NCBI GenBank assembly: GCA_016793095.1
Contig: JAEUJQ010000032.1
Coordinates: forward strand, 1-64,000
Reading direction: 5' to 3'
DNA from: Myxococcaceae bacterium
Lineage (GTDB): Bacteria; Myxococcota; Myxococcia; Myxococcales; Myxococcaceae
DNA length: 64,000 nucleotides
Shown: one piece after another, positions 37,908-61,191 of the stretch
Layout: each line of letters begins with the position of its first letter
Position numbering within the stretch: the stretch's first letter is position 1
Notes under the pieces: generated by a model
What the model was told of the DNA's origin: nothing
The model's input: the letters and a program-made list of their open reading frames with translations, nothing else
Databases searched by the model: none
Position numbers and translations under genes: made by a program

Positions 37908-38893
37908 GAGGTGGTCCCTCCGGTGAACGCTGGCAGCGCGGCGACGGGCCGGGGCGTCGGCGTGAAGAAGACGCGCATCGCCCGCGCCACCTTGCCGCTC
38001 GTCGGCAGGCTCGCGCGGCCCGAGAAGACGTCGAAGTCGCGCGCCTCGATGACGTCGAGGATGCCCGAGTAGACCGCGCCCATCAGCCGCACCAGGCGCT
38101 GGCTGCCGAAGCCGCGCAGGTCGGGCACGCCGAGCAGCGCCCGCTCGAAGAGCGCCCGCGCGCGTGCCACCTGCACCTGCATGAAGGGACGCCACTGCGC
38201 TGGCAGCGGTCCGCCCTGGGCCGCCCGGAGCAGCGCGTACTCGCTCAGCCCGAAGGCGCTCAGCTCGTCGGCCGGCAGGTAGACGCGGCCGCGCTCGAGG
38301 TCCTCCTTCACGTCCCGGAGGATGTTGGTGAGCTGCATGGCGACGCCGAGGTCCACCGCGTAGGGCAGGCAGCGCTCGTCGACGTAGCCGAGCACCGGCG
38401 TCATCAGCTCACCCACCACGCCGGCCACCCGGTAGCAGTAGAGGCGCAGCTCCTCGAAGGTCGCGTAGCGCTGCTTCGTGAGGTCCATCTCCATGCCGGC
38501 GATGAGCTCCTGCAGCGGCCGCTCGGGGATGTGGAAGCGGGCCACGGTGTCCCGGAACGCGGCCAGCTCGGCCTCGTGCCAGGGGAGCGCCAGCGCCGGG
38601 CCCTGCACGTCGGGGCGATAGAGAGACGACACCAGGCTGCGCGCGTCGCCGAGCCGCTGGGCGAGCGCGCTCACCGGCTCGTCGGGCGCGACGACAGACC
38701 CGTCTCCGGCGTTGTCACCGTCGACGAGATCGTCGAGCCGCCGGCAGAAGGCATAGAGGGCGAACGCGCCGCGCCGCCGGGCGCCGAAGAGGGCGATGCT
38801 CGAGAAGAAGAACGACTTCGAGTGCCGCCGCGTCAGCGCCTTCGCGCGCGCGTAGCCCTCGGCCACCAGCTGCGCGTCGCCGGGCGTGGTCAC
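37904..38893 (-). CDS. crtB: Phytoene synthase
   Basis: A 329-residue squalene/phytoene synthase that joins two GGPP to phytoene. The first Asp-rich site is ALYAFCRRLDDLVDGD and the second is AMQLTNILRDVKEDLERGRVYLP. It also has SFFFSSIALFGARRRGAFALYAFCR and MEMDLTKQRYATFEEL. Start GTG 38891-38893 overlaps the crtI stop as GTGA. It acts at the membrane between crtE and crtI steps. Confidence 0.95.
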   Translation of the reverse strand: MTTPGDAQLVAEGYARAKALTRRHSKSFFFSSIALFGARRRGAFALYAFCRRLDDLVDGDNAGDGSVVAPDEPVSALAQRLGDARSLVSSLYRPDVQGPALALPWHEAELAAFRDTVARFHIPERPLQELIAGMEMDLTKQRYATFEELRLYCYRVAGVVGELMTPVLGYVDERCLPYAVDLGVAMQLTNILRDVKEDLERGRVYLPADELSAFGLSEYALLRAAQGGPLPAQWRPFMQVQVARARALFERALLGVPDLRGFGSQRLVRLMGAVYSGILDVIEARDFDVFSGRASLPTSGKVARAMRVFFTPTPRPVAALPAFTGGTTS

Positions 38894-40446
38894 GAGAGGG
38901 CCTCCCGCGCGGCCGCGAGCGTGGGGCCGTCGTCCGGGGCAGCCGCCACCGGGGCGTTGCTCCGGGAGGGCTTCGCGGAGGCGCGCTCGTCGATGGCCTG
39001 TACGCAGAGATCGGCGGAGATCATCACCGTCGGCACGCCCGTCCCCGGCTGGACGGAGGCGCCGCAGTAGAAGAGGTCGTTCACGCGGTCGTCCCACACC
39101 TTCGGCCGGAAGGGACCGATCTGGAACATGTTCTGAGCCAGGCCGAAGTTGGCGCCGCGCTCGAGGTTGAGCTCCCGCTCCCAGTCGTCGGGGGTCACCA
39201 CGCGCTCGACCTCGAGGTCCTCTTCGATGGAGCCCATCCCCAGCTCGCGCAGCCTCGCGAACACCTTCGCGCGCACCTTCGGGCCCTCGATGGACCAGTC
39301 GAGGTGCGGCGCCTTGTGGGGGACGGGGACCAGCACGTACAGCGCGTCCTTGCCAGCGGGCGCCATCGATGGGTCGGTGTGCGCCGGCGCGTTGACGTAG
39401 AAGCTCGGGTCCTCGGGCACCTCGAGCTTCTCGAAGATGCTGGTGAAGCTGCCCTTGAAGTCGCGGCCGAAGAAGACGTTGTGGTGCAGCAGCTCGTCGT
39501 GGCGGCGCTTGAGGCCGAGGTACAGCATGTAGCCGGACGAGGTGTAGCGCTTCTTCTCGAGGGCCTTCGTGCGAGAGACCTCTGCGGGGAGCAGGTGCTT
39601 CTGGGCGAAGGGGTAGTCCGCGTTCACCACCACGACGTCGGCCTTCACCAGCCGCCCGTCTTCGAGCTCCACGCCGCGCGCCGCGCCGTCATGCACGAGC
39701 ACCCGGCGAACGGACGTGCCGTAGTGGGTCGTCACGCCCAGCTCCCGGCCCACCCGCTCGAGCGCGCGGGGGATCTCTCCCATGCCGCCCATCGGGTACC
39801 ACACGCCGACCGCGAGCTCGGTGTACGGCAGCAGTCCGAAGACCGCGGGGGCCTCGTACGGGGACACGCCCAGGTACATCGTCTGGAAAGACATCACCTG
39901 GCGCAGCCGCTCGTCTGAGAAGGACTTCGCGACCTGCGAGGCCAGCGTCTGGTGGGCGCCGATGCGGAAGATGTGCGGCAGGTTGGCCGGGGTGAGGAAC
40001 TGGCTCAGCGAGTCGAAGTGCCGAGAGACGAAGCGCTCCATCGAGGTGTCGTGACGGTCGCGACCCTTCGCGAGGAAGCGCAGGTAGCGCTCGAAGCTGC
40101 CCGGCTCGATGCGCTCGAGCTCTTCGCGCATGCGGGTCAGCTCGCTGGTGAGGGTCAGCGTGGTGTCGTCACGGAAGGTGACGCGGTAGTTCGGGTCGCA
40201 CCGCACCAGCGTGAGGTAGTCGGACAGCCGCCGATCCACCGACGCGAAGATGCGCTCGAAGACGAACGGCATGAGCATGATGGTGGGCCCCAGGTCCCAC
40301 CGGAAGCCGCCGGCCTCGATGCGGCCACACCGGCCTCCCGGCGTCGCCTGCTTCTCGTACACGTCGACCCGCCAGCCGCGGTGCGCGAGCTTCATCGCCG
40401 CGGTGAGGCCGCCGACGCCGGCGCCGATGACGATGGCGCGGCTCAT
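38890..40446 (-). CDS. crtI: Phytoene desaturase
   Basis: A 518-residue CrtI with FAD motif AIVIGAGVGGLTAAMKLAHRGWRVDVYEKQATPGGRCGRI and C-terminal NDLFYCGASVQPGTGVPTVMISADLCVQAI. The segment FQTMYLGVSPYEAPAVFGLLPYTELAVGVWYPMGGMGEIP is characteristic of bacterial CrtI. It introduces double bonds into phytoene to give lycopene or neurosporene. M. xanthus uses two CrtI proteins (CrtIa, CrtIb); only this one and CrtD are seen here. ATG overlaps the crtE stop. Confidence 0.93.
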   Translation of the reverse strand: MSRAIVIGAGVGGLTAAMKLAHRGWRVDVYEKQATPGGRCGRIEAGGFRWDLGPTIMLMPFVFERIFASVDRRLSDYLTLVRCDPNYRVTFRDDTTLTLTSELTRMREELERIEPGSFERYLRFLAKGRDRHDTSMERFVSRHFDSLSQFLTPANLPHIFRIGAHQTLASQVAKSFSDERLRQVMSFQTMYLGVSPYEAPAVFGLLPYTELAVGVWYPMGGMGEIPRALERVGRELGVTTHYGTSVRRVLVHDGAARGVELEDGRLVKADVVVVNADYPFAQKHLLPAEVSRTKALEKKRYTSSGYMLYLGLKRRHDELLHHNVFFGRDFKGSFTSIFEKLEVPEDPSFYVNAPAHTDPSMAPAGKDALYVLVPVPHKAPHLDWSIEGPKVRAKVFARLRELGMGSIEEDLEVERVVTPDDWERELNLERGANFGLAQNMFQIGPFRPKVWDDRVNDLFYCGASVQPGTGVPTVMISADLCVQAIDERASAKPSRSNAPVAAAPDDGPTLAAAREALS

Positions 40447-41516
40447 GTCGTCCTCCGCTCCATGCGGGCGACGAGGCCGTCGAGCACCTGCCGCACGCCG
40501 CCGCCCGCCGGGAGCTGCGCCAGCACCCGCCGTGCGCTGCGTGTCATGCGCTCGATGGCGCGCTCGGTGGCCTCAGCGCCGCCCCACGCGTTCACCAGGG
40601 CTCGGGCCCGCGCCAGCGCTGCGTCGTCCCGCGGCTGGGCGTCCCAGAGCTGCTCGAGGGCCTCCCGCCCCGCGGCGTCCGCCCGCGTCCACGCGGCGAT
40701 GACCGGGAAGGTGCGCTTGCCCTCCACGAAGTCGCCACCGCCAGCCTTGCCGGCCACGGTGTCGTCGCCGAAGAGGCCGATGAGGTCGTCGCGGAGCTGG
40801 AAGGCGAGGCCTACCTGACGCCCCACCCGCTCGAGCTGCTCCAGCAGCGCGCCGTCGGCGCCGCCCAGCATCGCGCCCGCCACCAGCGGCGCCACGAAGC
40901 CGTAGCGGGCCGTCTTCAGGTTCGCGACCTTCAGCGTCTGAAACACCGTGACCTCGGCGAGGGGCGTGCGTGAGAGGTCGAGGTCCAGGTACTGGCCCGC
41001 CGCGGTGTGCCGGCAGATCGCCATCATGTACTGCGTGGCCTTCGCGCACGCCGGCAGCCCTGAGCCGAGCATCACCTCGACGGCGCGGGCGTACACGTGG
41101 TCGCCGACGACGATGGCGAGGTCGTCACCGCCCTGTCCCGACGCGAGCACCCGGTGGAGCGTCGGCCCACCCCGCCGGGTCGCCGCGCGATCGGCCACGT
41201 CGTCGTGAACGAGCATGAAGGTGTGCAGCAGCTCGAGGCCGGCCGCGAACTCGAGCACCTCGCGGGGCACGCCACGGGAGAGGCCTCTCGTCGCCAACGC
41301 CCAGCCAGCCACCAGCAGCGTCGGCCTCACCCGCTTCGCTGGGCGCAGCGCGTAGGCGCGCAGCTCGACCATCGCCCTCGACCAGCGGGGATCGACGCCG
41401 GCCTCGTCGGGCAGCACGAGCAGGTCAGCCAGCACCCGCTCGAAGTCCTGATGGAACGCCGCCAGCGCAGCTTCAGCTCCCAACGGTCCAGTCGTCGACG
41501 TCGCGATGCTCGTCAT
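40443..41516 (-). CDS. crtE: Geranylgeranyl diphosphate synthase
   Basis: A 357-residue trans-prenyltransferase. The first Asp-rich motif is MLVHDDVADRAATRRGGPTLH and the second is FQLRDDLIGLFGDDTVAGK. LRPAKRVRPTLLVAGW is the family Arg/Lys region. It extends FPP to GGPP for crtB. ATG 41514-41516 follows GAGAGG. It opens the carotenoid operon, so the operon promoter must lie in the 86 bp before the divergent thioredoxin-fold gene. Confidence 0.94.
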   Translation of the reverse strand: MTSIATSTTGPLGAEAALAAFHQDFERVLADLLVLPDEAGVDPRWSRAMVELRAYALRPAKRVRPTLLVAGWALATRGLSRGVPREVLEFAAGLELLHTFMLVHDDVADRAATRRGGPTLHRVLASGQGGDDLAIVVGDHVYARAVEVMLGSGLPACAKATQYMMAICRHTAAGQYLDLDLSRTPLAEVTVFQTLKVANLKTARYGFVAPLVAGAMLGGADGALLEQLERVGRQVGLAFQLRDDLIGLFGDDTVAGKAGGGDFVEGKRTFPVIAAWTRADAAGREALEQLWDAQPRDDAALARARALVNAWGGAEATERAIERMTRSARRVLAQLPAGGGVRQVLDGLVARMERRTT

Positions 41517-45296: not shown

Positions 45297-46208
45297 TCAG
45301 CGACGCAACAGCGCCTGCAGGTGGGCCTTCTCCCATGCGATGGCCGCGGCGTAGCGCGGGAACGCCCGCTCGCGGTCGCGGAAGGCGCGCGGGTGGTGCA
45401 CATGCCGCCCCGAGTCTCGTGCGCTCGGGAAGACCTGGTGCAGCATCTCGTGAAAGACGATGTACTCGACGAAGAAGAGCGGCACGTCGGGGCGGTCGAG
45501 CGCCGGGTGCACCCGGATCTCCCGCGCGCGGTGATCGTAGACGCCGAGGCGAATGGACCTGCGTCGCCGCCTGGCCGCATTCCGGCCCCAGCCGATGCGG
45601 GCGCGGATCGTGTCCTGGAAGTAGAGGCGGTTGAGCCGCTCGAAGATCTCGGCGAGGTCGAAGCACTTCCCGCGCGTCGACATCGTCGCCTTGCGGCGCG
45701 GCTCGGCGCGAATGTGAGCCTGGCGATCGGCGATGTAGTCATCGAGCACCTGACCGGCGGCCCGGCGGCCTCGCCCCGCGTAGTCGGCCAGCGCGCGGAT
45801 GATGGCCGGCGGCGCCTCGAGGAAGAGGTGGTGGACGCGGAGCTTGAGCAGCGGAGGCTCGCGGCGGAAGCTGATCATGGTGCTGCGGTTGTCGTGCACC
45901 GACAGCAGCACCTTCACCTCGGGTCCCAGCAGCGTCGCGAGCTGGCGGGCGAGCTCTCTCGCGGCTGACAGGGCCTGCTGCCGGCTCGGCACGGCGCGGT
46001 GAGTCCCGGCACCTTCTTCGGCGCTCGTGGCGGCAGCGGTCCCGCTCGGGTGCTCCGCCGCGGGGGCGGAGGGCGCGGGGCTTCGGGCATGCGTGGACGA
46101 CGCGGCTTCCGTCGACGTCACCTCCAGGGCGGGCTTCCCCTCATGGACGGCGAGGGGCTGGGGAACGGGCGCCCTGAACAGGTCGAGCTGTCGCGGCGGC
46201 AGGCGCAC
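45297..46208 (-). CDS. SprT-like zinc metalloprotease domain protein
   Basis: A 303-residue protein. The N-terminal ~100 residues are Ala/Ser/Glu-rich and low complexity. A SprT-like domain occupies the C-terminal part: FDLAEIFERLNRLYFQDTIRARIGWGRN, REIRVHPALDRPDVPLFFVEYIVFHEMLHQVF (HExxH), and HVHHPRAFRDRERAFPRY, whose His is the third zinc ligand. SprT/Spartan-like domains act on DNA-linked or other proteins, but the bacterial role is poorly known. Start is GTG 46208. Confidence 0.82.
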   Translation of the reverse strand: MRLPPRQLDLFRAPVPQPLAVHEGKPALEVTSTEAASSTHARSPAPSAPAAEHPSGTAAATSAEEGAGTHRAVPSRQQALSAARELARQLATLLGPEVKVLLSVHDNRSTMISFRREPPLLKLRVHHLFLEAPPAIIRALADYAGRGRRAAGQVLDDYIADRQAHIRAEPRRKATMSTRGKCFDLAEIFERLNRLYFQDTIRARIGWGRNAARRRRRSIRLGVYDHRAREIRVHPALDRPDVPLFFVEYIVFHEMLHQVFPSARDSGRHVHHPRAFRDRERAFPRYAAAIAWEKAHLQALLRR

Positions 46209-46336
46209 CCGACAGTTCTACCGGCGCACGCTGCCTGGGAAAAGGCCGCCAGCCGCGGTGCCCCGCGAGCTCCGATGCCAGCCAGACCGCGCTGAGGAGG
46301 TGTCGTTTCGGCCTCGGGTCCTCGGGGAGGAAGCAA

Positions 46337-46457: not shown

Positions 46458-49400
46458 TCAGAGGGCGCGGCCGAAGATGTTGTAGAGGCCGCGCATGATC
46501 TCCATGTTGCGCACGGTCTCGCGCACCCTGGCCTCCCACTCCGACGCGGTGAAGCAGTTGCTGCCGGTCGTGCAGGTGTTGCCCTGCGGGTCGATGCGCT
46601 GGTTCAGGTTCTTCGCCTTGTCCCAGTTCACCTTCTGCGCGATCGCCCGCGTCACGATGGCCGCGCCGGTGGTGGGCGCCGGGTCGCCGATCTTCCGCAG
46701 CGCCGCGTAGATGTAGCCACCCGAGAACGGGTCGGGGAACTGCACCGTCTCGTACCCAGCCGCGGGCTCGAGGGCCTCGTCACTGCCAAGGCGGTAGACC
46801 TTGGAGAACTCCGCGTACTCGAGGTTGAAGTTCTGGGTGAAGAAGGCCATCGAGAACAGCTGCGAGTAGAAGCGCGCGCTCCAGGTCGAGATCGGGTTCA
46901 CCTTCGACATCGGCATCGGGTTGCCGTTGCCGTCGACCGGCGTGACCGGGGCCACGGGGTAGTTGAAGCCGAAGATGTAGTCGTTCGCCTTGATGTACGT
47001 CGGCACCTGGATGGTGGCGGTGCCGTCGGCGTTCTTCGCGAGCATCGGCGAGTAGTAGTCCACCGTCTCGGTGAAGTAGTTGCCGAACAGCGGCGCGAGC
47101 TCCTTGTTGAACGTGAGGTAGTACGGCAGCGAGTAGCGGAGCGCGTCGGAGCCACGGTCCACGCCGAGGAAGTTCGTCTCGCTCGTGATGAGGGCGAGCA
47201 TGGCGGCGTAGACGTCCCAGAAGTGGCCGGCCTCGTTCACGCGGCTGTAGTTGTCGTAGCCGAACGAGTCGAACACGGTGAACATCGAGCGGCCCGGGCC
47301 ACGCGGCACGTACGCGAGGTCGGTGAAGCCGCCCCGGTCCGCGCGCGCGATGTCGGCCTTGAGCGCCGCCTCGGCGGTGTCGGAGAGCCGGCGGTTGAGG
47401 GCGTCGCCCGTGGGCAGGTACTCCCACGTGCCGTCCGGCCGCTTGCCGTGGTAGCCGGCCGACGGAATCGACAGCTGCTGCATCAGCAGGTTCGTCGAGT
47501 CCACCACCGCCATCGTCCAGTAGTTCTGCCACATCGGGTCGCCAAGGCCGTAGAGCTCGTCGATCTCCTCAGGCGAGAGCTGGTAGTACTTGGTGATGTA
47601 ATAGATGTTGAAGAGCCACTGCTGGTACACGTTCGGCACGTTGCCGAGGAACCGGCCGAACTTGCCCGAGGCGATGGCCGACGGCGAGTAGATGAGCCGG
47701 TCGCGGCGGAAGTTCGAGAACACGTACGACTGGTTGAAGCGCTCGATCCACTTCGAGGTCATCTCGTAGACGTCAGCGCCCTGATCGTTCCGGTTGCACA
47801 TCAGGTTCGCGCCGACCTCGTAGTCCGAGCAGAACATGTAGGGCACCTCGACCGGCACGTCCTTGCCACCGGCCGCGTTCACCACCGTGCGGCTGCGCTC
47901 GAGGTCGCGCTCGCCCAGGCCCTTGGCGTCGAGCACGTAGCTCTTCACCTCGCGGTTGAGGCGGTCGTACACCTTCTGCATGTCGCTCCACTTCTTGTAG
48001 GAGCGGTTCTGCATGCGCGAGATGCCCTGGTTCAGCCGGTCCTCGAACGAGCCGTTGGCCTCGGCGAAATGGAAGGGCAGCGTCGAGTAGTGGTACTTGT
48101 CGGTGTAGAGGTTCGACGCCGGCGTGTAGTGCTCGACCATCGCCAGCGGCATCTCGACATGCGCGCCGCGGGCCGTGAAGACCTTGGCCAGGTTGTCGAC
48201 CTCGAGGGTGACCGCGGTGTTCTGGTAGTCGCCGCGCGTCTGGTTGAAGACCTCGACCCAGCCGGGCTCGAAGCCGCCCGAGTACGCGAACAGGATCGCC
48301 GCGTCGTCGTACTTGCCGGTGCCCCGGTTCTGCGAGTTGACGCGGGCGCCGTAGTCCATGATCGACGAGTACTGGTACTCGTACATGCCCTCGTTCTGCT
48401 GCCGCTCGTTCATCTTCGCAGCGTCAGCCATGTTCTGCGGCGTGATGGGCAGCACGCGGCGGCCGCCGGCGATGACGCCGATGGTCTCCTTGCGAAGATC
48501 CCAGTACCCGTCCTGGAAGTTGAGCGCGTCAGCCGAGGCGATGAAGTTGTGCATCAGGCCCAGGGTGTGGCCGATCTCGTGCTCCATGACCGACCGGTAG
48601 GCCTCGCGGCGCAGGTCGTTGTAGACCTCGGCCTTGGCGAGCTTCCTGGCCTCGGCGTCGGTGCAGGCGGCCGGGTTGCCGCAGCTCGCGTTGCCCTGGC
48701 CCTTGAACCGGGTGATCAGGTCGTTCTGGAGCTTGAGCTTGCGCTTCGCGACGCCGAAGTAGTCCTCATCGGAGTAGGAGTACTCGTAGAAGCAGCCGAT
48801 GGTCGGGTCGACCCGCTGCTTCAGCTGCTTGCGCGCGTCCTCGATGGGGTCGATGCCCAGGAGGATGTTGCGGGCCACCTGGCGGTAGAAGGCCGAGTCG
48901 CTCTCGAGCCGCTGGCCGAAGGCGCGGTTGGGCACGTGGCCGAGCACCGCGACGCGGACCTCGGGCAGGTTGATGAGGGTGTCTTCGAGCGACGGGTTGT
49001 CCTTGAGGAGCTGCGCGACGGTGGCCTTCCGGTCACCCTTCAGCAGCGGCAGGCCGGTCGCCTTGAACGTCCCGAGCAGGTCGGCCAGCCGGCCCGTGGG
49101 CTTCGCGAACGAGCCCGCCGGACGCGAGGGGTCCGAGATGAGGGGCTGCTGCGAGGTGAAGGGGCCCGTGCGCGGACGCCGCGGATCGGTCGGGTTCAGG
49201 TTGCCCGAGATGTAGTCGCGAATGTCCTTGCCGGTGACGAGCTCTGCCAGGCTGACCTCGCCGTTCACCACGTCGATGATCTGCGACGAGCTGCCGGACC
49301 AGGTGTCGAGACCGGGACCGTAGACGTTGGCGACCGCGTTGACGACCTCACCCGTCTCCGGGTCCATCGCTGACGGGCCGAGGCCGAGCAGGCCGCCGGC

Positions 49401-50828
49401 GTTCTGGTCGACGTACGGAGCCATGTGGAAGCGCAGGTCGCCGAGGCGCGCGTAGGTGCCCGGCTTGCCGCAGGCCTTCTCGCGCTCAGGAGAACCACCA
49501 GCCTGCACCGGCGACTCGCAGACGAAGAACATCTGCGGCATGGGGTCACGCTCGCCCGGCACGCCCGGGTCGTACGGCTCGAGCCCGCGGGGCACGGCGA
49601 CCGCCTTGCGGAACGCGCGGTCCCACGAGGCCTCGATGGTGTTCTTCGGGTTGAAGCCGTCCTTCTCCGCCCACCGCTGCGCCGCCGAGCCCCACAGCTC
49701 GCGGGGGGTGTTGTCGGTCATGTAGTAGACGACCGGGCGGACCTGTCGCTTGCTCACCGGAAGGGTCTTGTACAGCTTGCGACCGGTGACGCCGTCGATG
49801 AGCTCCTTGCCCTTCTCGTCCTTCTGGACCTCCTTCGACTTGAGCCAGATGTTGTGGCGCATCGCGAAGAACTGCTGACCCGAGTACGTGAAGTAGCGGT
49901 CCTTCGAGTAGGTGTAGAGCTCGTTCCGGAAGTAGCCGAACTTCACCATCATCTTGTCGGTGTAGGTCAGCGGCTCGTAGTCATCGACGCGGGCCTCATC
50001 GACCTTCATCACCGAGGTGCGGATCTTCACGTTCGACGACTCGCAGTCGAAGGTGGGGTTGAAGAGGCAGTACGGCAGGCGGCCATAGCCCGGGTAGTCG
50101 ATCGACGGAGGATCGACGATGGCCTGCGTGGTGAAGTCGAGGTAGCTGAGCTTCGCCCCCGTCCCGCACTTCAGCGTCGAGTTCTTCTGCTCACTGCCGT
50201 CGGAGCACGCATAGACCATCGACTCGTTGTGCGCGGCCTGGTCCTGGTCCGTGACGACGCGGGTCTTCAGCACGCCGTTGAGGAAGTCGAACGGGCCGGT
50301 GAGGTTGCTGTAGCTGAGGATCTGGTTGTTCGCCCAGTCCACCCGCATGTACTCACGCTGGTACCAGGGGCGGTCGAGGGTGTCCTCGACGAGCACGTTC
50401 GTCACCTCGCCCGTCGCTGCGTTGTACTGGCGCTGGCGGTCGAAGTGGCTGGTGATGCGGTACGCGTACACCGGGTTGCCCTTGAAGGGCTTCCCATCAC
50501 GCATCCGCACGTCGCCGATCTTCGACTTCACCGGATCGACGCGCGGGTCGGCGCCGGGCACCACCTCATAGGAGCGGTAGCCGACGAGCATGTTCTCCTG
50601 GACTTCCCAGCGAATCTTCTCGAGCTTGCCGCCCGAGCCGATGATGCCGGCCGCGCCAGGCGTCTTGGCCGTGTCGACGATGGTCTCCTTGATGTACCAC
50701 TGCCCGTCGAGCAGGTCGGCCTTCTTGACGTAGTTGGGCTGCGTGCGGTCGATGATGTCGGGCTGACCGCAGCCCACCGCGACGACGGCAGCGGCGGCAG
50801 CGAAGAGGATGCGGAACGAGGGCTTCAT
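46458..50828 (-). CDS. Large metzincin-type zinc lipoprotein protease, copy 1
   Basis: A 1,456-residue lipoprotein. Its signal ends in VVAVGC (lipobox). The motif HEIGHTLGLMH at residues 750-760 is the metzincin HExxHxxGxxH site with three His ligands, and Met824 in YSSIMDYGA fits a Met-turn. N-terminal and C-terminal regions are unlike known domains but align by eye with the next gene. It is probably anchored in the outer membrane. ATG 50828 follows GGAGACACC. The paralogue's stop lies 41 bp upstream, so the two are cotranscribed. DUF5117/DUF4953-like zinc proteins are the nearest idea. Substrate unknown. Confidence 0.85.
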   Translation of the reverse strand: MKPSFRILFAAAAAVVAVGCGQPDIIDRTQPNYVKKADLLDGQWYIKETIVDTAKTPGAAGIIGSGGKLEKIRWEVQENMLVGYRSYEVVPGADPRVDPVKSKIGDVRMRDGKPFKGNPVYAYRITSHFDRQRQYNAATGEVTNVLVEDTLDRPWYQREYMRVDWANNQILSYSNLTGPFDFLNGVLKTRVVTDQDQAAHNESMVYACSDGSEQKNSTLKCGTGAKLSYLDFTTQAIVDPPSIDYPGYGRLPYCLFNPTFDCESSNVKIRTSVMKVDEARVDDYEPLTYTDKMMVKFGYFRNELYTYSKDRYFTYSGQQFFAMRHNIWLKSKEVQKDEKGKELIDGVTGRKLYKTLPVSKRQVRPVVYYMTDNTPRELWGSAAQRWAEKDGFNPKNTIEASWDRAFRKAVAVPRGLEPYDPGVPGERDPMPQMFFVCESPVQAGGSPEREKACGKPGTYARLGDLRFHMAPYVDQNAGGLLGLGPSAMDPETGEVVNAVANVYGPGLDTWSGSSSQIIDVVNGEVSLAELVTGKDIRDYISGNLNPTDPRRPRTGPFTSQQPLISDPSRPAGSFAKPTGRLADLLGTFKATGLPLLKGDRKATVAQLLKDNPSLEDTLINLPEVRVAVLGHVPNRAFGQRLESDSAFYRQVARNILLGIDPIEDARKQLKQRVDPTIGCFYEYSYSDEDYFGVAKRKLKLQNDLITRFKGQGNASCGNPAACTDAEARKLAKAEVYNDLRREAYRSVMEHEIGHTLGLMHNFIASADALNFQDGYWDLRKETIGVIAGGRRVLPITPQNMADAAKMNERQQNEGMYEYQYSSIMDYGARVNSQNRGTGKYDDAAILFAYSGGFEPGWVEVFNQTRGDYQNTAVTLEVDNLAKVFTARGAHVEMPLAMVEHYTPASNLYTDKYHYSTLPFHFAEANGSFEDRLNQGISRMQNRSYKKWSDMQKVYDRLNREVKSYVLDAKGLGERDLERSRTVVNAAGGKDVPVEVPYMFCSDYEVGANLMCNRNDQGADVYEMTSKWIERFNQSYVFSNFRRDRLIYSPSAIASGKFGRFLGNVPNVYQQWLFNIYYITKYYQLSPEEIDELYGLGDPMWQNYWTMAVVDSTNLLMQQLSIPSAGYHGKRPDGTWEYLPTGDALNRRLSDTAEAALKADIARADRGGFTDLAYVPRGPGRSMFTVFDSFGYDNYSRVNEAGHFWDVYAAMLALITSETNFLGVDRGSDALRYSLPYYLTFNKELAPLFGNYFTETVDYYSPMLAKNADGTATIQVPTYIKANDYIFGFNYPVAPVTPVDGNGNPMPMSKVNPISTWSARFYSQLFSMAFFTQNFNLEYAEFSKVYRLGSDEALEPAAGYETVQFPDPFSGGYIYAALRKIGDPAPTTGAAIVTRAIAQKVNWDKAKNLNQRIDPQGNTCTTGSNCFTASEWEARVRETVRNMEIMRGLYNIFGRAL

Positions 50829-50869
50829 GGTGTCTCCGTAGAAGTTCCGTGAGGTCCGTGAGGTCATGG

Positions 50870-53800
50870 TCAGAACGCCCTTCCGAACGCGCCGTACATC
50901 GAGCGGGCGAGGTCGAGGTCGCGAACCTCATCGCGGAACACCTCGGTCCAGAACCGACGGCGGTCTTCGATGATGCGCGGGTTGTTCGCCTGCTCGGAGG
51001 CGAGGCAGCCGTAGCCCTGAATCGTCAGGTAGTCCGGCAGGGGGCAGCGGGCAGGGTCCTGGACCATCAGCAGCACGTCCTGGGCGTGGCGCACGAGGGA
51101 GGTCGCCGCCGTGTCGGGGCACGTCTGGCCAGGCGGGCACGCGGGTCGAACGGCCGCGTAGCGCGAGCCGGTCGTCACGTCAGGCACCTCGACCAGCTCG
51201 TAGCCAGGCGCCACGGTGAAGTCCTCGCTGCCACCGATGCGGTAGACCTGGTTGGTCTTCGCGTAGTCGAGGTCGTAGTTGACGCGGAAGAGCGCGAGGC
51301 CGAGCCAGAGCGCGTAGATGCGGCTGGTCCACGTCATCTGAATGTTGGCAGGCGCCGGGTTCTGCCCAGCGATGAAGCAGGTGGGCGGCCGGGCGTTGCC
51401 GGTGCAGCGGCCCGGGAGCTGCGGCGGGTAGTCGAAGTTCGCGAAGATGTCCGAGCCCTTCACGTACACGCGCCAGAAGAGGCTCAGGTCGTCCGTCACC
51501 TCGCCGCGGTCGTTGGTCCGCTTGAAGGCCGTCGGCCGCACCTTGAGCTCATCGTTGCCCCAGAGCGCCCCGAAGGTGTCGGTCATCTCGTCCTTGAAGA
51601 GCAGGTAGTAAGGCACGTTGTACCGGTTCTGGTCGGAGTCGGTGTCGAGCCCCTGCACGTCGATCTGCGGGAGCACCGCCGCGAACATCGCGCCGAGCTG
51701 GTCGTTGTAGTGGCCCGCCTCGCTCATGCGCTGGAAGAAGCCGAAGCCGGACTTGAAGTCGTACCGGCTGTACATGCGGCGCCCGAGCCCACGGGGCATG
51801 GTGCCGAAGTCATTGGCGCCGAGGCGCGAGCTGTAGAGCTCCTGGTACTTCGCGCGGCCCGCGGGCGTGAGGGCGTCGAAGTCATCACCCTCGCTGATCA
51901 CGTCCCACCGCGCGCCGGTGGTGCGCAGCGTGCGGTACATGAAGAGGCCGAACGGCGGCACGCTCATGACGTTGAGGTGCTGGTTGATGCCGTCGATGAC
52001 GCCGATGGTCCAGGTGTCCTGCAGCACCGGGTCGATGCGGTAGGTGATGCGCTGCTCCTGGTTCCGGTCAGGGGCGCGGTACAGCTCGAGCATGTAGTGC
52101 TTGTACGAGTTGGCGACGTTGTAGAACGTGCCGAACGCGCTGTTCACCGCACCGTTGCCGCTGAAGAACGTGCGGTCGCGACGGAAGTGCGTGTCGACGT
52201 AGTAGTTCCAGTAGTCCTCGAGGTTCGTGCGCGTCTGCTCGTAGTAGTCGGCGCCGCGGTCGAAGCGGTAGCACGAGAGCACCGGGCCGTCGGCCGACTC
52301 GTCCGAGCAGAACATGTAGGGCACGCGCAGCAGCGAGGTGCCGATGACGCCCTTGGCGCGCTCGGGATCGTTCGCGAGCGACGGGTCGCCGTTGAGGATC
52401 GCCCGCACCCGCTCCTCGTCCTTGCGAACCTCGGAGTACTTCACCAGCCGGCGATCCTTCAGCTTGGCGATGCCGTCGTCGATGACCGCGTTGATGTCGC
52501 CCGCCGACGGCGACTCGCCGAAGTGCAGCGGCACCAGGCTGTAGTGGAAGCGCTCGGTGTAGTTGCGCACGTTCGGGTTCGTGTGCGTGACGTTCACCAG
52601 CGGCAGATCCACGTCCGCGCCGCTGATGGTCATCATGTTGCCGTCTGAGCCACGGAACGCGACGCTGTCACGCCGCGCCTTGTTGAACACCTCGACGAAC
52701 GAGCTGTCGGTCGTCGCGGCGCCGGTGCCGCCCGGCTGCGAGACGGCGGTGTAGGCGAAGATGATGGCCGACTCGTCGTACTTCCCGAGGCCCTTCCAGT
52801 CGGTGAAGATCTTGCCGGCGTAGTCCATGATCGACGAGTACTCGTTCGAGTGCATGCTCGACAGGCGCTGGGTCTCGGTGCCCTCGGCTGCCGCCTTCAG
52901 GTCCGCCGGCCGACGCGGGATCACCGGCTGGCCGTTCTGCGTGACGGTGATGCTCGCCTTCCGCAGCGGCCAGTAGTCATCGAAGAAGTTGATGGCGTCG
53001 AACGAGCCCTGGAAGTTGTGCCGGAGGTTCAGGGTGTGGCCCATCTCGTGGAGCGAGGTGGACAGCCACACCTGCTGGCGCACGAACTTCGCGATCTCGT
53101 CGTTGGCCAGGCGCAGGGCCTCCTCGTCGGAGCAGGGAGGCAGGGCCGTCGGCGTCGGCGGAGTGCCCGAGCACTTCTTGTTGCCGCCAGCCTTGAACTC
53201 GTCGCGCTTCTGGTCGCGCTTGGCGAGCAGCTCGTTCGCGACCCCGACCAGGGTGCGGTCGAAGAACTCGGCCATGTAGATGTTGTTCTTCGAGAGGAAC
53301 TCGATGCGGCGCTTCTTCCAGTCGTGGACGTTCTGGTAGTTGGTCAGCGCGATGCGGGCCATGTCGCGGCGGAACGCGGCGTCGGTCTTGGCGCGCTCCT
53401 GCGCGAACGGCGGCAGCAGGTTGACGACGTCGTCGCCGATCTCGGGGTTGTCGATGACGGCGGCCTCGAGGTCAGGGTGCTGCTTGAGCACCTCGGCGGC
53501 GACGCGCATCTCGTTGCGGGTCGCGCGCGGCATGCCGCCGGCGCCCTTCAGGTTGCCGAGCAGCCGGTCCAGGCGGGCTGACGGCCGCGCGAACGCGCCC
53601 TGGGTCTCGACGTTGCGCTGGGGAATGCCCTGCAGCTCGGCCGAGATGGTGGCGTTCTGCTTGCGAACCTGCGCGATGTTGTAGACGGGGTTGTCCTTGA
53701 TGAACTGCGCCACGTCGCGGCCCGAGATGTACTCGGTGATGTTCTTCTCGCCGGACTGCAGCAGGATCCAGTCGGTGACCGAGCGGCCGTAGAGGTCGAC

Positions 53801-55252
53801 ACCCCACGTGTAGGTGTTCGAGTTGCCCGAGATGACCTCGCCCGTCTCAGGGTCGGCCGAGCTGGGGCCGTAGCCGAGGAGGCCGTTGGCGACCGGCTCG
53901 GCGATGGTGTTCATGAAGCTGTAGCGCAGGTCGCCGAACTTCGGCGAGAAGCCCTCGGCGCCACACTCCTTCGGGTTGCCCTTCTTCACCGGGTTGTCGC
54001 AGAGGAAGTAGACCTGCTCGGTGACGTCGGCCGGCTTGACGTTGCGGACGGCCGCGACGGCGCGCTTGAAGGCGCGGTCGTAGTCGCGGGCGATGACCTG
54101 GCCGGGCTCGATGAACTCGTCGTAGCGCTCCTGGCCGCCCATGCGGTCGGCGCGCGAGAAGTAATAGACGATGGGCCGCACCTTGCGCAGCGCCGGGTCG
54201 ATCGGGCGGGCGGCGTCGGGCATGCCGTTGCCATCCTTCTCGAAGTACTCCTGCCACAGGCGGTGCCGCTGGCCGATCAGGATGCGCGCCGACTCCGTGG
54301 TGCCGAACATGCGGTCATAGTTGAGGCGCTCGGTGCGGAAGACGCCGAACAGCGACATCATGTCGTTCGGGTAGAGCAGCGGCTCGTAGTCACGCACGCG
54401 CTTCGTGTCGACCTTCGCCACCGAGATGCGCATCTTGATCTCCGACGAGCTGCAGTCGTAGATGCCCTCGGCGAACCAGCACAGCGGCACCGAGCCGTAG
54501 CCCTCGAAGTACATGGTGTCGGGCATGGCGAGGTAGCGGCCGGTGACGTCGAAGTACTTCAGCTTGCGGCTCTCGCCCTCACCCTCGTACTCGAAGGTCG
54601 GCCAGTCCTGCGGGTCCTCGGTCTTCTCGTTCGGCTGGATCCAGTTCGCGCTCGTCGAGCTGCCGGCCGGGTTCTGCACCGTGCCCCAGCTCATGCCCTG
54701 GAACATGTTGAGCACGTTCGAGGCCCAGTTCACGCGAATGTACTCGCGCTGGTTCCAGTACCGGTCCGAGGTGTTCTCGGAGATGACGTTGGTCTGCTCA
54801 CCCGTCGCGGCGTTGTAGCCGCGCTGAATGTCGAAGTGGCTGGTGATGGGGAAGGCCACCACCGGAGCGCCGTAGTACTTCTGGCCGCCGGTGCACTTGC
54901 CCTCGCGATCGCAGTACTTCGCGGTCGTGCCCGAGATCTGCGACGTCCGGTCGATGTTCGGCTCGATGCCGAGCATGTACGGGTACGAGCGGTAGCCGAC
55001 CAGGTGCCCTTCCTGGATCTCCCACACCAGCTTCTCCATGTTCCCCGTCTGGCCGGGGTAGGTGAACTGGGTGTTGTGCGGCGTGTAGGTGACGGAGTTG
55101 CGGAAGTACCACTCGCCGTCGAGCAGATCGCTCTTGCGCACGACGTTCGGCTGCACGCGGTTCACGTCGCCGTTGCTCTGGGCGCAGGCGGCGGCGAACA
55201 GCGCGATGGCGGCCGAGGCCAACCAGCGGGCGTAGGGTGACTGCTGATTCAT
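50870..55252 (-). CDS. Large metzincin-type zinc lipoprotein protease, copy 2
   Basis: A 1,460-residue paralogue of the preceding entry. Signal sequence IALFAAAC ends in a lipobox. HEMGHTLNLRH at 735-745 keeps all three His and the catalytic Glu but has Asn where metzincins have Gly. YSSIMDYAGK supplies the Met-turn. The N terminus (RVQPNVVRKSDLLDGEWYFRN) and the C terminus (SMYGAFGRAF) mirror copy 1 (RTQPNYVKKADLLDGQWYIKE; GLYNIFGRAL), consistent with tandem duplication. ATG 55252 follows GGAGG. It lies 65 bp after an outer-membrane barrel gene. Confidence 0.85.
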   Translation of the reverse strand: MNQQSPYARWLASAAIALFAAACAQSNGDVNRVQPNVVRKSDLLDGEWYFRNSVTYTPHNTQFTYPGQTGNMEKLVWEIQEGHLVGYRSYPYMLGIEPNIDRTSQISGTTAKYCDREGKCTGGQKYYGAPVVAFPITSHFDIQRGYNAATGEQTNVISENTSDRYWNQREYIRVNWASNVLNMFQGMSWGTVQNPAGSSTSANWIQPNEKTEDPQDWPTFEYEGEGESRKLKYFDVTGRYLAMPDTMYFEGYGSVPLCWFAEGIYDCSSSEIKMRISVAKVDTKRVRDYEPLLYPNDMMSLFGVFRTERLNYDRMFGTTESARILIGQRHRLWQEYFEKDGNGMPDAARPIDPALRKVRPIVYYFSRADRMGGQERYDEFIEPGQVIARDYDRAFKRAVAAVRNVKPADVTEQVYFLCDNPVKKGNPKECGAEGFSPKFGDLRYSFMNTIAEPVANGLLGYGPSSADPETGEVISGNSNTYTWGVDLYGRSVTDWILLQSGEKNITEYISGRDVAQFIKDNPVYNIAQVRKQNATISAELQGIPQRNVETQGAFARPSARLDRLLGNLKGAGGMPRATRNEMRVAAEVLKQHPDLEAAVIDNPEIGDDVVNLLPPFAQERAKTDAAFRRDMARIALTNYQNVHDWKKRRIEFLSKNNIYMAEFFDRTLVGVANELLAKRDQKRDEFKAGGNKKCSGTPPTPTALPPCSDEEALRLANDEIAKFVRQQVWLSTSLHEMGHTLNLRHNFQGSFDAINFFDDYWPLRKASITVTQNGQPVIPRRPADLKAAAEGTETQRLSSMHSNEYSSIMDYAGKIFTDWKGLGKYDESAIIFAYTAVSQPGGTGAATTDSSFVEVFNKARRDSVAFRGSDGNMMTISGADVDLPLVNVTHTNPNVRNYTERFHYSLVPLHFGESPSAGDINAVIDDGIAKLKDRRLVKYSEVRKDEERVRAILNGDPSLANDPERAKGVIGTSLLRVPYMFCSDESADGPVLSCYRFDRGADYYEQTRTNLEDYWNYYVDTHFRRDRTFFSGNGAVNSAFGTFYNVANSYKHYMLELYRAPDRNQEQRITYRIDPVLQDTWTIGVIDGINQHLNVMSVPPFGLFMYRTLRTTGARWDVISEGDDFDALTPAGRAKYQELYSSRLGANDFGTMPRGLGRRMYSRYDFKSGFGFFQRMSEAGHYNDQLGAMFAAVLPQIDVQGLDTDSDQNRYNVPYYLLFKDEMTDTFGALWGNDELKVRPTAFKRTNDRGEVTDDLSLFWRVYVKGSDIFANFDYPPQLPGRCTGNARPPTCFIAGQNPAPANIQMTWTSRIYALWLGLALFRVNYDLDYAKTNQVYRIGGSEDFTVAPGYELVEVPDVTTGSRYAAVRPACPPGQTCPDTAATSLVRHAQDVLLMVQDPARCPLPDYLTIQGYGCLASEQANNPRIIEDRRRFWTEVFRDEVRDLDLARSMYGAFGRAF

Positions 55253-55317
55253 GGTGCCTCCGTGACGGTTCGACTTCAGGTTCGACAGGGTTGAAGAGTT
55301 CGACATGGAAAGGGCTC

Positions 55318-56532
55318 TCAGTAAGCGGCGCCGAGCGAGACGATGAAGCTGGTGTTGTTGGACGCGGCGTCGATGAACGAGCCGATGGGGGGACGCGGCA
55401 CCCACTTGTCGCCGACGCGCACCATCGGGGACTGGATGGTGAAGACGTAGAAGTCGAGGTTGTAGTGCTCGTTGAGCTGGTAGGAGGCTCCGATGAAGGC
55501 GCGGGTGACGTCGTTCCCGCCCATGCCCGCCCGGCCCACCTGGTTGCCGTTCGAGTCGAGCGCCTGCGGCAAGGTCGGGTCGTTCGGGTCGGTGGTCGCC
55601 GCCTGGTTGAAGCTGCGGGCGTACGAGTAGCCGGCGAACAGCAGCAGGTTGCCGCCGGTGCGCCAGTTGACCCCGCCTCCGATCGAGCCCGAGAACGCGG
55701 GGTTCATGCCGTTCACCGCCGCGAACGTCTCGTCGGGCCTCCCGATGACGATCTGGTTGCCCAACGCGTCGCGGTTGCCGGGCGCCGTCACGGGCCTGTT
55801 GCGAATGCCGTTCACGGCGCTGGTGTAGATGCCGTAGCTGCCGGCGAGCGTGAGGCGGAAGTCGAAGCCGCCGTTGCCGACCTTCACCGAACGGGTGACG
55901 GCTGCTCCCACACCCAGCGTCGAGATGAGCCCAGCCGTGAAGGACTCGGGCGACGTGGGCACGATGGCGGTGATGGACGGAGTGATGGCGATGCCGGTCA
56001 CCGCCTTGTCCCGGAAGAGCGCCGGGGCCACGAGGGTGAGCCGGGTGTCCTGCGGGAAGAAGCGCCGGCCATTCGGCGCGTCGGGCAGGGTGTACTCATA
56101 GAAGGCCCACACGCGCGCGGAGGCAGCCAGGCGAATGCCCTTGATGCCGAAGAGGAAGGTGGCAGACAAGCTGGGCGAGGCGACCAGGGACGCGTACTTC
56201 TCGGAGTCCACGAAGGTGCCGGTGCCCAACCAGTGGTCGAGACCGAACGCGAACTGGAAGCCCGTCTGGTTGGCCTGCTCCTCAGGCGTACGCGCCTGCA
56301 CGGCGTTGGCGAGCGCGTTCTGCTGCTGCTGGGGCTGCGCGGCGGCTGCGGCCTTCGGATCCTTCGCCTTGTCGTCCTTCTTCTCGTCCTTCTTCTCGCC
56401 GCCTGAGCTCGCCGGCGCGGGAGCCGTCTGGGCAACCTCGGAATTCGCGGCGGGTTGGGAGGTTGGAGTCGCATCGGCCACCGCGATCGCGGGCACGAGC
56501 GCCAGGGCCAGGGCTGAGGACAAGAGCTTCAC
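55318..56532 (-). CDS. Putative outer-membrane beta-barrel protein
   Basis: A 404-residue protein. A signal peptide (VKLLSSALALALVPAIAVADA) is followed by a Pro/Ala/Lys linker (residues ~20-75). The rest alternates amphipathic strands, Gly turns and aromatic residues (FQFAFGLDHWLGTGTF; LSATFLFGIKGIRLAASARVWAFYEY; FDFRLTLAGSYGIYTS; NNTSFIVSLGAAY) and ends in Tyr, as outer-membrane barrels do. GTG 56530-56532 follows GGAGG. It is the first gene of a three-gene operon with the two large zinc lipoproteins, so it may help place or export them. Confidence 0.75.
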   Translation of the reverse strand: MKLLSSALALALVPAIAVADATPTSQPAANSEVAQTAPAPASSGGEKKDEKKDDKAKDPKAAAAAQPQQQQNALANAVQARTPEEQANQTGFQFAFGLDHWLGTGTFVDSEKYASLVASPSLSATFLFGIKGIRLAASARVWAFYEYTLPDAPNGRRFFPQDTRLTLVAPALFRDKAVTGIAITPSITAIVPTSPESFTAGLISTLGVGAAVTRSVKVGNGGFDFRLTLAGSYGIYTSAVNGIRNRPVTAPGNRDALGNQIVIGRPDETFAAVNGMNPAFSGSIGGGVNWRTGGNLLLFAGYSYARSFNQAATTDPNDPTLPQALDSNGNQVGRAGMGGNDVTRAFIGASYQLNEHYNLDFYVFTIQSPMVRVGDKWVPRPPIGSFIDAASNNTSFIVSLGAAY

Positions 56533-58519: not shown

Positions 58520-59566
58520 TCAGTCCGGCTTCTTCGGCGCGAGGCCCACGATGGCGCCGAGCGAGAACGGCTTGGGCGGCTCGAGCTGCGCGTAGGTGCA
58601 CGAGGCGGGCGTGCGGTCTTCTCTCCAGCGCAGGAACGTCGTGGCGTGGCGGAAGCGCGGGCCCTGCGTGTAGTCGTAGCGCACCTCGCAGACGAGCTTC
58701 GGCTCGAGGCTGACCCAGGGCTTCTCTTCTCCTGAGCTCCACCGGCTGGGCGCGTCGGGCGTACGGCCTTCCCCGAAGCCCTGGTCGGGCTTCTTGAGCG
58801 GCGCCAGCTTCTCGAGCAGCGCCTTCTTCTCCTTCGCGGTGAAGCTCGCGGTGTGGCCGACGTGGTGGAGCACGCCCTGCGCGTCGTAGAGGCCGAGCAG
58901 CAGCGAGCCCACGGTGCCGGGCGTCTTGCCCTCGCGGTAGCCGCCCACCACGCACTCGGCGGTGCGGCCGTGCTTCACCTTCACCATGACGCGCTCTCCG
59001 GGGCGGTACGGCAGCTCCTCGCGGCGGGCGATGACGCCGTCGCAGCCTGCGCCCTCGAAGTCGACGAACCATTGCTTCGCCTGACGGGGGTCCTTCGTCT
59101 GGGGCGTGACGAAGACGCGGGTGGTGGAGGGCACACGCTTCTCGAGCTCGGCGCGGCGCTCGGCGTAGGGCTTCTCGCGCCAGTCGTCGGAGCCCAGGCC
59201 GAGCAGGTCGAACGCCACGAAGCTGGTGGGGATCTCGGCGGCCAGCTTGTTCACGCGCGACGCGGCCGGGTGCAGTCGCGACTGGAGCGCGTCGAAGTCG
59301 AGGCCCTTCGGCCCGGGGAGGATGATCTCTCCGTCGACGATGCACTGCGCCGGGAGCGCGGCCTTGAGCGAGGTGATCAGCTCGGGGAAGTAGCGGCCCA
59401 GCGGCCGGCCGCCGCGGCTCGAGAGCGCGACCTGGTCGCCGTCGCGGAAGACGATGCAGCGAAAGCCGTCCCACTTGGGCTCGTAGCGCCAGCCCGGCCC
59501 CTCGGGGATGTCGTCGTGCGCCTTCGCCAGCATGGGCTCCAGCGGGGGCGCGAACGCGAGCGTCAT
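58520..59566 (-). CDS. ATP-dependent DNA ligase (LigC/LigD-ligase-domain type)
   Basis: A 348-residue ligase. Motif I is YEPKWDGFR with the adenylated Lys; other motifs are VALSSRGGR, IVDGEIILP, DGVIARREELPYRPGERVMVKVKHGRTAECVVGGYREG. It seals nicks using ATP and has no NucS or polymerase domain and no adjacent Ku gene in the window. Length suggests stand-alone LigC-like activity. ATG overlaps the collagen-like gene's stop (ATGA), coupling it to a surface lipoprotein gene, an unusual neighbour. Confidence 0.88.
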   Translation of the reverse strand: MTLAFAPPLEPMLAKAHDDIPEGPGWRYEPKWDGFRCIVFRDGDQVALSSRGGRPLGRYFPELITSLKAALPAQCIVDGEIILPGPKGLDFDALQSRLHPAASRVNKLAAEIPTSFVAFDLLGLGSDDWREKPYAERRAELEKRVPSTTRVFVTPQTKDPRQAKQWFVDFEGAGCDGVIARREELPYRPGERVMVKVKHGRTAECVVGGYREGKTPGTVGSLLLGLYDAQGVLHHVGHTASFTAKEKKALLEKLAPLKKPDQGFGEGRTPDAPSRWSSGEEKPWVSLEPKLVCEVRYDYTQGPRFRHATTFLRWREDRTPASCTYAQLEPPKPFSLGAIVGLAPKKPD

Positions 59567-61104
59567 GGGCAGGTGACCGCCGCTCCGGTGGGCGTGGTGA
59601 CTCCGATGCAGGTCGAGGTGTTGAGGGTCGCGAACACCTGCGAGACCAGCCCGTGGGTGATGAAGTTCCGCCGCAGGCTGGACTGCAGCGAGGCCGAGCC
59701 CGTCGCGCCGAGGAAGAACGGCTGCCGCAGCTCGAGGGTGCCGAGCGGTCCGGTGGCCTGGAGGGCGCGCCGGGTGCTGGTCTCTGGAAGCGCGCCGGAC
59801 AGATCGACCCGCAGATCGTCGAAGAGGAAGCGCGGGTCTTCCCCCGCCAGCGAGGCGAGTCGGACTCCGGTCAGCGTTCCAGCGCCCGCGGTGCCGCTCG
59901 CGATGACGGACACGCGCGACGCGGTGATCGGCCCCGTCGCTTCGATTCCAACGGGCGCGGTGTGTGACGCCTGAACGGCGAGCGTGACGGCGACCCGATC
60001 GAGCACGGAGAAGGTGTTGGTGCCGCCACGCAGCACCAGGCCTGCCACGTCGGCGCCGGTCGCCACGCTGCCGGTGATGAACACGTCGACGTCACGAAGG
60101 CTGGTGCTGCCGAGGCCGGGACGGAAGACCCCGGTTACGAGGCCCGGCCCGCGCTGCTGGCCTCCGATGAACGTGTCCTTGATGGTCAGGCTGCCGTCGA
60201 TCTGCTCGACGTAGCTCGTGACGACGCCCAGCGTGTTGGTGCCCGCCGCAGCGGTGAGGGTCGCCTCGCGAATCGTCACGACGTTGCTGCCCACGACGTT
60301 GGCGCGCACCACGACGCCCCGCGCGGCCGAGGACTGGCGCGTCACCGTCACGCCAGACAGCGAACCATCGCCGGTGAACTCGATGACGGCGCCCGCCGGA
60401 GCGCCCGAGATGAACGTGCTGCCTTCCCCGGCTCCCGAGAGGGCGATGTTGGCGAGCGACAGCGTGGTGGCGCCGAGGTCGTACTGCCCGGGCTCGAGCA
60501 GCACCTGCCAGCCCGCGCGGACCGCTGGCGCAGGCGCGAGCCCGCTGATCGCGTTGCGCAGCGCAGTGCCGTTGTCCGCAGGAGTGCCCACTGCGCGAAC
60601 GACCCGCGTCCTCGCGAAGACCGTGGACGAGTCGCCGTTGCAGACGAACGACGAGCCGCTCGCCGTGACCAGCTTCGTGCCGCCCGCCGCGCAGTTCGTC
60701 CCGGGCGCCTCGGACGAGGCTTCGACCGAGACGCCCGCGTCGCCGGGCGCGCCATTGCACGCAAAGGTCGATGTGCCGCCAGCGGTGATGCGGGCTCCGC
60801 CTGACGAGCAGTTCGCGCCTGGAGCCTCGACCGCGACCATCACCTGCCCGGCCATACCCGGCTGGCCGTTGCACACATAGCTGGTACCCGCGGACGAGGT
60901 GAGCCGGACGCCGCCGTTGGCGCAGTTCGCTCCGGCGGCCTCGACGTCGGCGCTGACGGACGAGCCCATCGGGCCGGTCGGTCCGGAGCTGCCGGACATG
61001 CCTGTCGGACCAACAGGCCCCGCAGGACCGGCTGGACCCTCCGGTCCGGGAGGCGGAGAGGTACAGGCTGCGACGAGGAGGAGTATGAGCGGGGGCAATC
61101 GCAT
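59563..61104 (-). CDS. Collagen-like lipoprotein with repeated Cys modules and beta-helix-like tail
   Basis: A 513-residue protein. The signal MRLPPLILLLVAAC is a lipobox, followed by a collagen-like GPxGPxG stretch (GPEGPAGPAGPVGPTG). Three Cys repeats then follow (ANCANGGVRLTSSAGTSYVCNG; NCSSGGARITAGGTSTFACNG; NCAAGGTKLVTASGSSFVCNG). From about residue 170 Gly/Ser-rich short strands suggest a right-handed beta-helix. It is probably surface-exposed. ATG 61104 gives the signal. It heads the run with ligase and NFACT genes. Confidence 0.82.
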   Translation of the reverse strand: MRLPPLILLLVAACTSPPPGPEGPAGPAGPVGPTGMSGSSGPTGPMGSSVSADVEAAGANCANGGVRLTSSAGTSYVCNGQPGMAGQVMVAVEAPGANCSSGGARITAGGTSTFACNGAPGDAGVSVEASSEAPGTNCAAGGTKLVTASGSSFVCNGDSSTVFARTRVVRAVGTPADNGTALRNAISGLAPAPAVRAGWQVLLEPGQYDLGATTLSLANIALSGAGEGSTFISGAPAGAVIEFTGDGSLSGVTVTRQSSAARGVVVRANVVGSNVVTIREATLTAAAGTNTLGVVTSYVEQIDGSLTIKDTFIGGQQRGPGLVTGVFRPGLGSTSLRDVDVFITGSVATGADVAGLVLRGGTNTFSVLDRVAVTLAVQASHTAPVGIEATGPITASRVSVIASGTAGAGTLTGVRLASLAGEDPRFLFDDLRVDLSGALPETSTRRALQATGPLGTLELRQPFFLGATGSASLQSSLRRNFITHGLVSQVFATLNTSTCIGVTTPTGAAVTCP

Positions 61105-61191
61105 CGCTCGCGGACAGTAACTGAGCCGCACGGCGCGGTCACACCCACGGACGCAGATGCACCCGGGCCCGACTCGCGCATAGAAAGAGGC

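Follow-up and report, generated by a model that had tools for sequence, protein, structure and literature searches.

A putative outer-membrane barrel co-inherited with giant metzincin-type lipoproteins in the Myxococcota

Several described outer-membrane barrels anchor or expose surface proteins. In the PorU-PorV attachment complex of type IX secretion, a surface protease is docked on an outer-membrane barrel. A PorP-like barrel of type IX secretion in the Bacteroidetes binds and anchors large surface proteins with a type B CTD (PMC9143113). Surface exposure of lipoproteins is handled by a dedicated barrel in the Slam/DUF560 (type XI) secretion system (PMC8406197, PMC9090332). The amyloid exporter FapF is a 12-stranded barrel with an N-terminal periplasmic linker and helix, and its system includes a protease (PMC5557850). 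The PorP-like, Slam/DUF560 and FapF barrels appear to be the nearest functional analogues of a three-gene locus identified in a member of the Myxococcaceae, and none of them was homologous to it by the tests run. A literature search for such a system in myxobacteria found no description.

The window analysed is a stretch of 64,000 nucleotides. Three genes at positions 46458-56532, all on the minus strand, encode a small outer-membrane beta-barrel and then two lipoproteins of ~1,460 residues (giants B and A). The features are as follows:

55318..56532, minus strand: barrel gene (GTG start), predicted outer-membrane beta-barrel
50870..55252, minus strand: giant B, putative lipoprotein metzincin of 1,460 aa, the giant nearer the barrel
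55184..55195, minus strand: lipobox of B, AAA-C, with Ala as the +2 residue
53018..53050, minus strand: zinc-binding motif of B, HEMGHTLNLRH, where the window's subclade has Asn in place of the metzincin Gly
52820..52834, minus strand: Met-turn of B, SIMDY, from sequence comparison
46458..50828, minus strand: giant A, putative lipoprotein metzincin of 1,456 aa, the giant farther from the barrel
50769..50780, minus strand: lipobox of A, AVG-C, with Gly as the +2 residue
49323..49745, minus strand: putative N-terminal subdomain of A's metzincin fold, spanning residues 362-502 with RPVVYY ... GDLRF ... DPETGE and shown by profile comparison to be homologous to canonical DUF5117/DUF4953 proteases (probability 94.6, E 7e-8)
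48549..48581, minus strand: zinc-binding motif of A, HEIGHTLGLMH, from invariant columns in the alignment
48351..48365, minus strand: Met-turn of A, SIMDY, from the alignment of giants

With these starts the intergenic gaps are 65 bp (barrel/B) and 41 bp (B/A); an alternative extended start at 50867 is also possible for A. The Met-turn sits 73 residues past the zinc site in both giants, which are 33-37% identical across essentially their whole length. The original prediction of tandem giants with HExxHx5H sites and lipoboxes 41-65 bp behind a barrel-like gene, similar from the N to the C terminus, is confirmed by these coordinates, motifs and identities. The gene order of the trio is conserved in 14 genomes, and both giants pass the cut-off (24.2 bits) of the Pfam family DUF4953 (PF16313, 'Met-zincin'), A with 34.8 bits and B, just, with 24.3; on these two grounds the similarity and arrangement are far beyond chance.

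Extension of the operon to its neighbours was considered and rejected, as the SprT-like, pyruvate kinase, NFACT and DNA ligase genes represent conserved synteny of housekeeping genes. The SprT-like protein (45297-46217, minus strand), conserved next to pyruvate kinase, has an HExxH-like motif of its own (FHEMLH) and no Pfam match. A 522-residue protein with a DUF7151 match is encoded at 59563-61131 (minus strand), upstream of NFACT and ligase. Elsewhere in the window (38890-41516, minus strand), a polyprenyl synthetase gene adjoins an FAD amine-oxidase/desaturase-like gene, possibly for carotenoid synthesis.

The barrel protein starts with the signal peptide VKLLSSALALALVPAIAVADA, followed by a low-complexity linker of ~75 residues that is rich in Ala, Gln and Lys and includes a short predicted helix. 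The C-terminal part is a barrel of ~315 residues ending in SLGAAY, an aromatic C-terminal beta-signal with a final Y. The predicted structure, a low-confidence model (pLDDT 47), has ~12 long strands, and the barrel is probably 12-stranded. The top Foldseek matches of this low-confidence model were all outer-membrane barrels (autotransporter translocators, FapF, NanC and OMPLA). Signal peptide, C-terminal aromatic residue, strand number and fold matches agree with the earlier designation of the gene as barrel-like and point to an outer-membrane barrel. Searches of Pfam and NCBIfam assigned the protein to no named family, with no match passing a cut-off, transporters included. FapF was the sole match of the barrel profile in the PDB, and it was not significant (E 0.7).

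The Pfam DUF4953 match itself spans only ~30 residues of each giant; PF16313 matches 33 of 33 aligned giants with E values up to 0.01. A comparison profile, built from one canonical DUF5117-DUF4953 protein together with six shorter proteins from relatives that carry DUF4953, was aligned with the giants, profile versus profile, by hhalign. Two blocks of collinear homology were found, the first comprising residues 362-502 listed above and the second residues 747-1029 (zinc motif, Met-turn, GKYD..A and FCSD; probability 98.7). From these two collinear blocks, the giants appear to carry a true DUF4953-type metzincin catalytic domain with an insert of ~240 residues and large additional N- and C-terminal regions. 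Profile homology thus extends beyond the motif over the catalytic domain, in line with the earlier label of metzincin-like. The canonical proteases contain the same blocks in the same order (RPIxYY...DPxTGE and HExxHTLGLxHN...S[IV]MDY), whereas they are only ~750-860 residues long, against 1,270-1,830 for the giants. The giants also differ from them in the insert between the blocks, in unique N-terminal (~350 residues) and C-terminal (~430 residues) regions and, in the Myxococcota sampled, in the accompanying barrel gene. Because only one of the 33 giants gives a DUF5117 match, a marginal one (E 0.007), the giants are best described as sharing the DUF4953 catalytic domain and not as canonical DUF5117-DUF4953 proteins.

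The consensus HExxHxxGxxH is matched exactly in A, whereas in B the three His and the Glu are present and the Gly is replaced by Asn. Orthologues of B outside the window's subclade keep the metzincin Gly (the subclade has HExxHTLNLRH), and the replacement may alter activity there. In the 33-row alignment the motif Glu and the S, M, D and Y of the Met-turn (SSIMDY in both A and B) are invariant. Since the zinc ligands (HExxHx5H) are kept in all 87 giants examined, the module probably needs protease activity to function. An AlphaFold2 model of residues 34-1233 of A, computed from a shallow alignment of eight rows, had a pLDDT of 29. A sequence search of the PDB with the giants gave no match beyond the zinc motif; ferritin, the top match of the giant profile (E 0.07), was taken as a chance match. 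Weak matches of the giant profile in large-genome relatives were ruled out as giants, being ordinary DUF4953 proteins of ~750-860 residues or metalloproteases of ~330-380 residues that lack the barrel. The DUF4953 metzincins of large-genome relatives without the module (L112, L114-L117 and L120) include some with lipobox-like N-termini.

A signal peptide with lipobox and Cys occurs in both A and B and, by pattern search, in 49 of the 52 nearer giants and in 28 of the 35 that are distant. At +2, most giants have Ala or Gly. A Lys at this position has been linked to inner-membrane retention of lipoproteins in M. xanthus (PMC3222651), and most giants do not have it. The proposal of a surface proteolytic system is supported in its components (lipidation signals, metzincin domains and an outer-membrane barrel); its surface exposure and its proteolysis are deduced from them.

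Comparison with the described systems gives likenesses of working and differences of sequence. The PorP-like system resembles the trio in that a barrel holds large surface proteins, whereas Pfam and NCBIfam searches detected no PorP_SprF domain in the trio barrel and no CTD in the giants, which are predicted lipoproteins from a different phylum. A search of the giants for a C-terminal export signal found neither a beta-signal nor a CTD, and their ends are mostly helical-looking and weakly shared. Slam resembles the proposed role of the barrel, being devoted to surface exposure of lipoproteins; in contrast, the same searches found no DUF560 in the trio barrel, which is probably 12-stranded with a low-complexity linker and has giant proteases as partners. 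FapF shares the probable strand number, linker and helix, fold matches and the presence of a protease, but the trio has no amyloid subunits in its operon and a metzincin instead of the C39 protease of Fap. PorU-PorV likewise places a protease at the surface on a barrel; it consists of a cysteine sortase-like protease and a FadL-like barrel, and homology to the trio was not detected.

Linkage of barrel and giant was examined with a barrel HMM seeded with the window's barrel alone and iterated over 1,464 open reading frames from loci around giants, a pool biased towards giants. It recovered 36 proteins. Automatic pairing placed a giant immediately downstream of 33 of them, and the remaining three lay in loci picked for their giants. 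Because of this bias, whole genomes (60 relatives and the genome of the window) were also searched. Among the 64 barrel matches, sorted by reading of coordinates, 54 lie beside a giant (with the order reversed in one case), contig ends truncate four, three belong to a single family in which the genes are unlinked, and three are weak orphans. The reversed arrangement, with the giant or giants first and the barrel last, was seen at L091 (2348-11529) and L075 (411-4308). The unlinked barrels belong to a family of three genomes (f9) that retains both partners; its giants (1,675-1,830 aa; L046, L051 and L052) are on loci separate from the barrels (L068, L069 and L070). At D-type loci the barrel-giant pair is the sole common content and no other neighbour is shared. 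The barrel stop overlaps the giant start by four bases in C-type and several D-type pairs, which suggests translational coupling.

The genome of the window contains exactly three barrels, each upstream of its own giant or giants (contigs C76, C2 and C34). Two of these modules have single giants, of ~1,275 residues on C2 (L028, 5583-10765) and at least 1,420 residues on C34 (L029, 2-5391), again with a four-base overlap of barrel stop and giant start. Across 156 Myxococcota genomes, the 55 that have the barrel are exactly those that have strong giants (E < 1e-50), and the other 101 lack both; as these genomes are related by descent and not independent, tight linkage and shared ancestry account for much of this co-occurrence. 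Of the 55 carriers, 29 are outside the order that supplied training sequences for the models. Barrel and giant distances are correlated over 54 loci (Mantel r 0.90; permutation maximum 0.17). Linkage, co-occurrence and co-divergence provide strong genetic evidence that the barrel is the genetic partner of the giants and not an accidental neighbour. The partnership foreseen between barrel and lipoproteins is thus strongly supported by genetics, and physical contact may be inferred from it.

The trio appears to be an ancient, so far unnamed module in which a pore-like barrel is co-inherited with one or two giants across many lineages of Myxococcota. The pair is kept together in some 25 family-level groups of this one phylum, and trios of one barrel and two giants occur in many distant families as well, including genomes as small as 1.8 Mb. 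In the tree, the A and B giants of the window's family group as sister clades, and the two giants of distant trios form another pair of clades. A single ancient duplication behind both pairs was rejected by the AU test (p 1.9e-5 with A constrained to the distant second giants; p 1e-46 with B constrained to the distant first giants). Because both constrained groupings are rejected, two-protease modules have at least two separate origins by tandem duplication, barring gene conversion that obscured an older event; the identity of 33% between A and B argues against recent gene conversion. Eight genomes of the same family without the trio have an empty site of ~1.0-2.5 kb between pyruvate kinase and NFACT, against 11.9 kb in the window, and this clean site reflects either loss or insertion of the module. 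All close relatives among named contigs, in a scan that detects close relatives only, were MAGs, and a search for a plasmid match found none; the sensitive module search covered the Myxococcota.

Co-inheritance of the pore-like barrel with the giants suggests that the proteases act on the outer membrane, with the pore as their partner. The reading favoured here, held with moderate confidence, is an outer-membrane protease complex in which a dedicated barrel anchors, displays or exports giant metzincins that cut polypeptides at the cell surface; its physical complex, surface side, proteolytic activity and substrates are what we infer. After export by Sec and lipidation, the giants would be directed to the outer membrane and there associate with their cognate barrel, which would anchor, display or export them. 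Foreign or extracellular protein is the most likely target of their metzincin domains, which would cleave polypeptides at the cell surface, and two giants in tandem probably have different substrates or share one barrel in a mixed complex. A role in predation, offered as an example in the original prediction, did not gain support. Many large genomes of the same family, several of them complete, lack the module, and predation is therefore unlikely as the conserved reason for it; judged by their size, these may be the genomes of the well-known cultured predator genera. Genomes as small as 1.8 Mb carry the trio, and predation is possible in carriers.

The giants might instead face the periplasm as quality-control or processing proteases of the outer membrane, acting on the barrel or on a polypeptide exported through it by a logic like that of FapD with FapF or of BepA. 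Periplasmic orientation is the default for lipoproteins, FapF is the one sequence-profile match of the barrel in the PDB, though not a significant one, and recurs among its fold matches, and the Fap system needs a protease for export through its 12-stranded barrel (PMC5557850). This arrangement is nevertheless unlikely: a conserved third gene, the candidate exported polypeptide, was sought at trio, C and D loci and none was found, and absence from 101 of 156 genomes together with repeated duplication is unlike core quality control. Operons that join an enzyme and a porin are common, and an accessory, multi-copy module would suit nutrient acquisition, with giants digesting protein outside the cell and the barrel taking up the peptides as in SusCD-like systems. 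However, the barrel is small (~12 strands), no transporter family of Pfam or NCBIfam matched it above the cut-off, and no conserved transporter genes were found beside it, so that uptake seems quite improbable. It is very improbable that the giants are inactive, with the metzincin domain serving as a structural or binding scaffold. The Gly to Asn replacement in B of the window's subclade and the bulk of each giant outside the catalytic domain would suit a scaffold, but the intact zinc ligands, the invariant Glu and Met-turn and the homology of the domain to canonical DUF4953 metalloproteases argue for an enzyme.

More tentatively, the barrel may be the first representative of a Myxococcota system devoted to displaying or exporting lipoproteins, with no relation to Slam or type IX secretion. 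Giant metzincins would be its sole clients, each barrel would serve its own one or two proteases, and the two-protease version would have evolved repeatedly.

The barrel family has no Pfam or NCBIfam entry and a literature search found no paper mentioning DUF4953 or DUF5117; even so, barrel and giant have stayed together in about 25 family-level groups. The three paralogous pairs in one genome represent a built-in test of specificity. The repeated, independent step from one to two proteases per barrel raises the question of whether the complex has two client sites. The trio offers a specific and testable candidate for the way in which large lipoprotein enzymes are retained at the outer membrane or pass across it.
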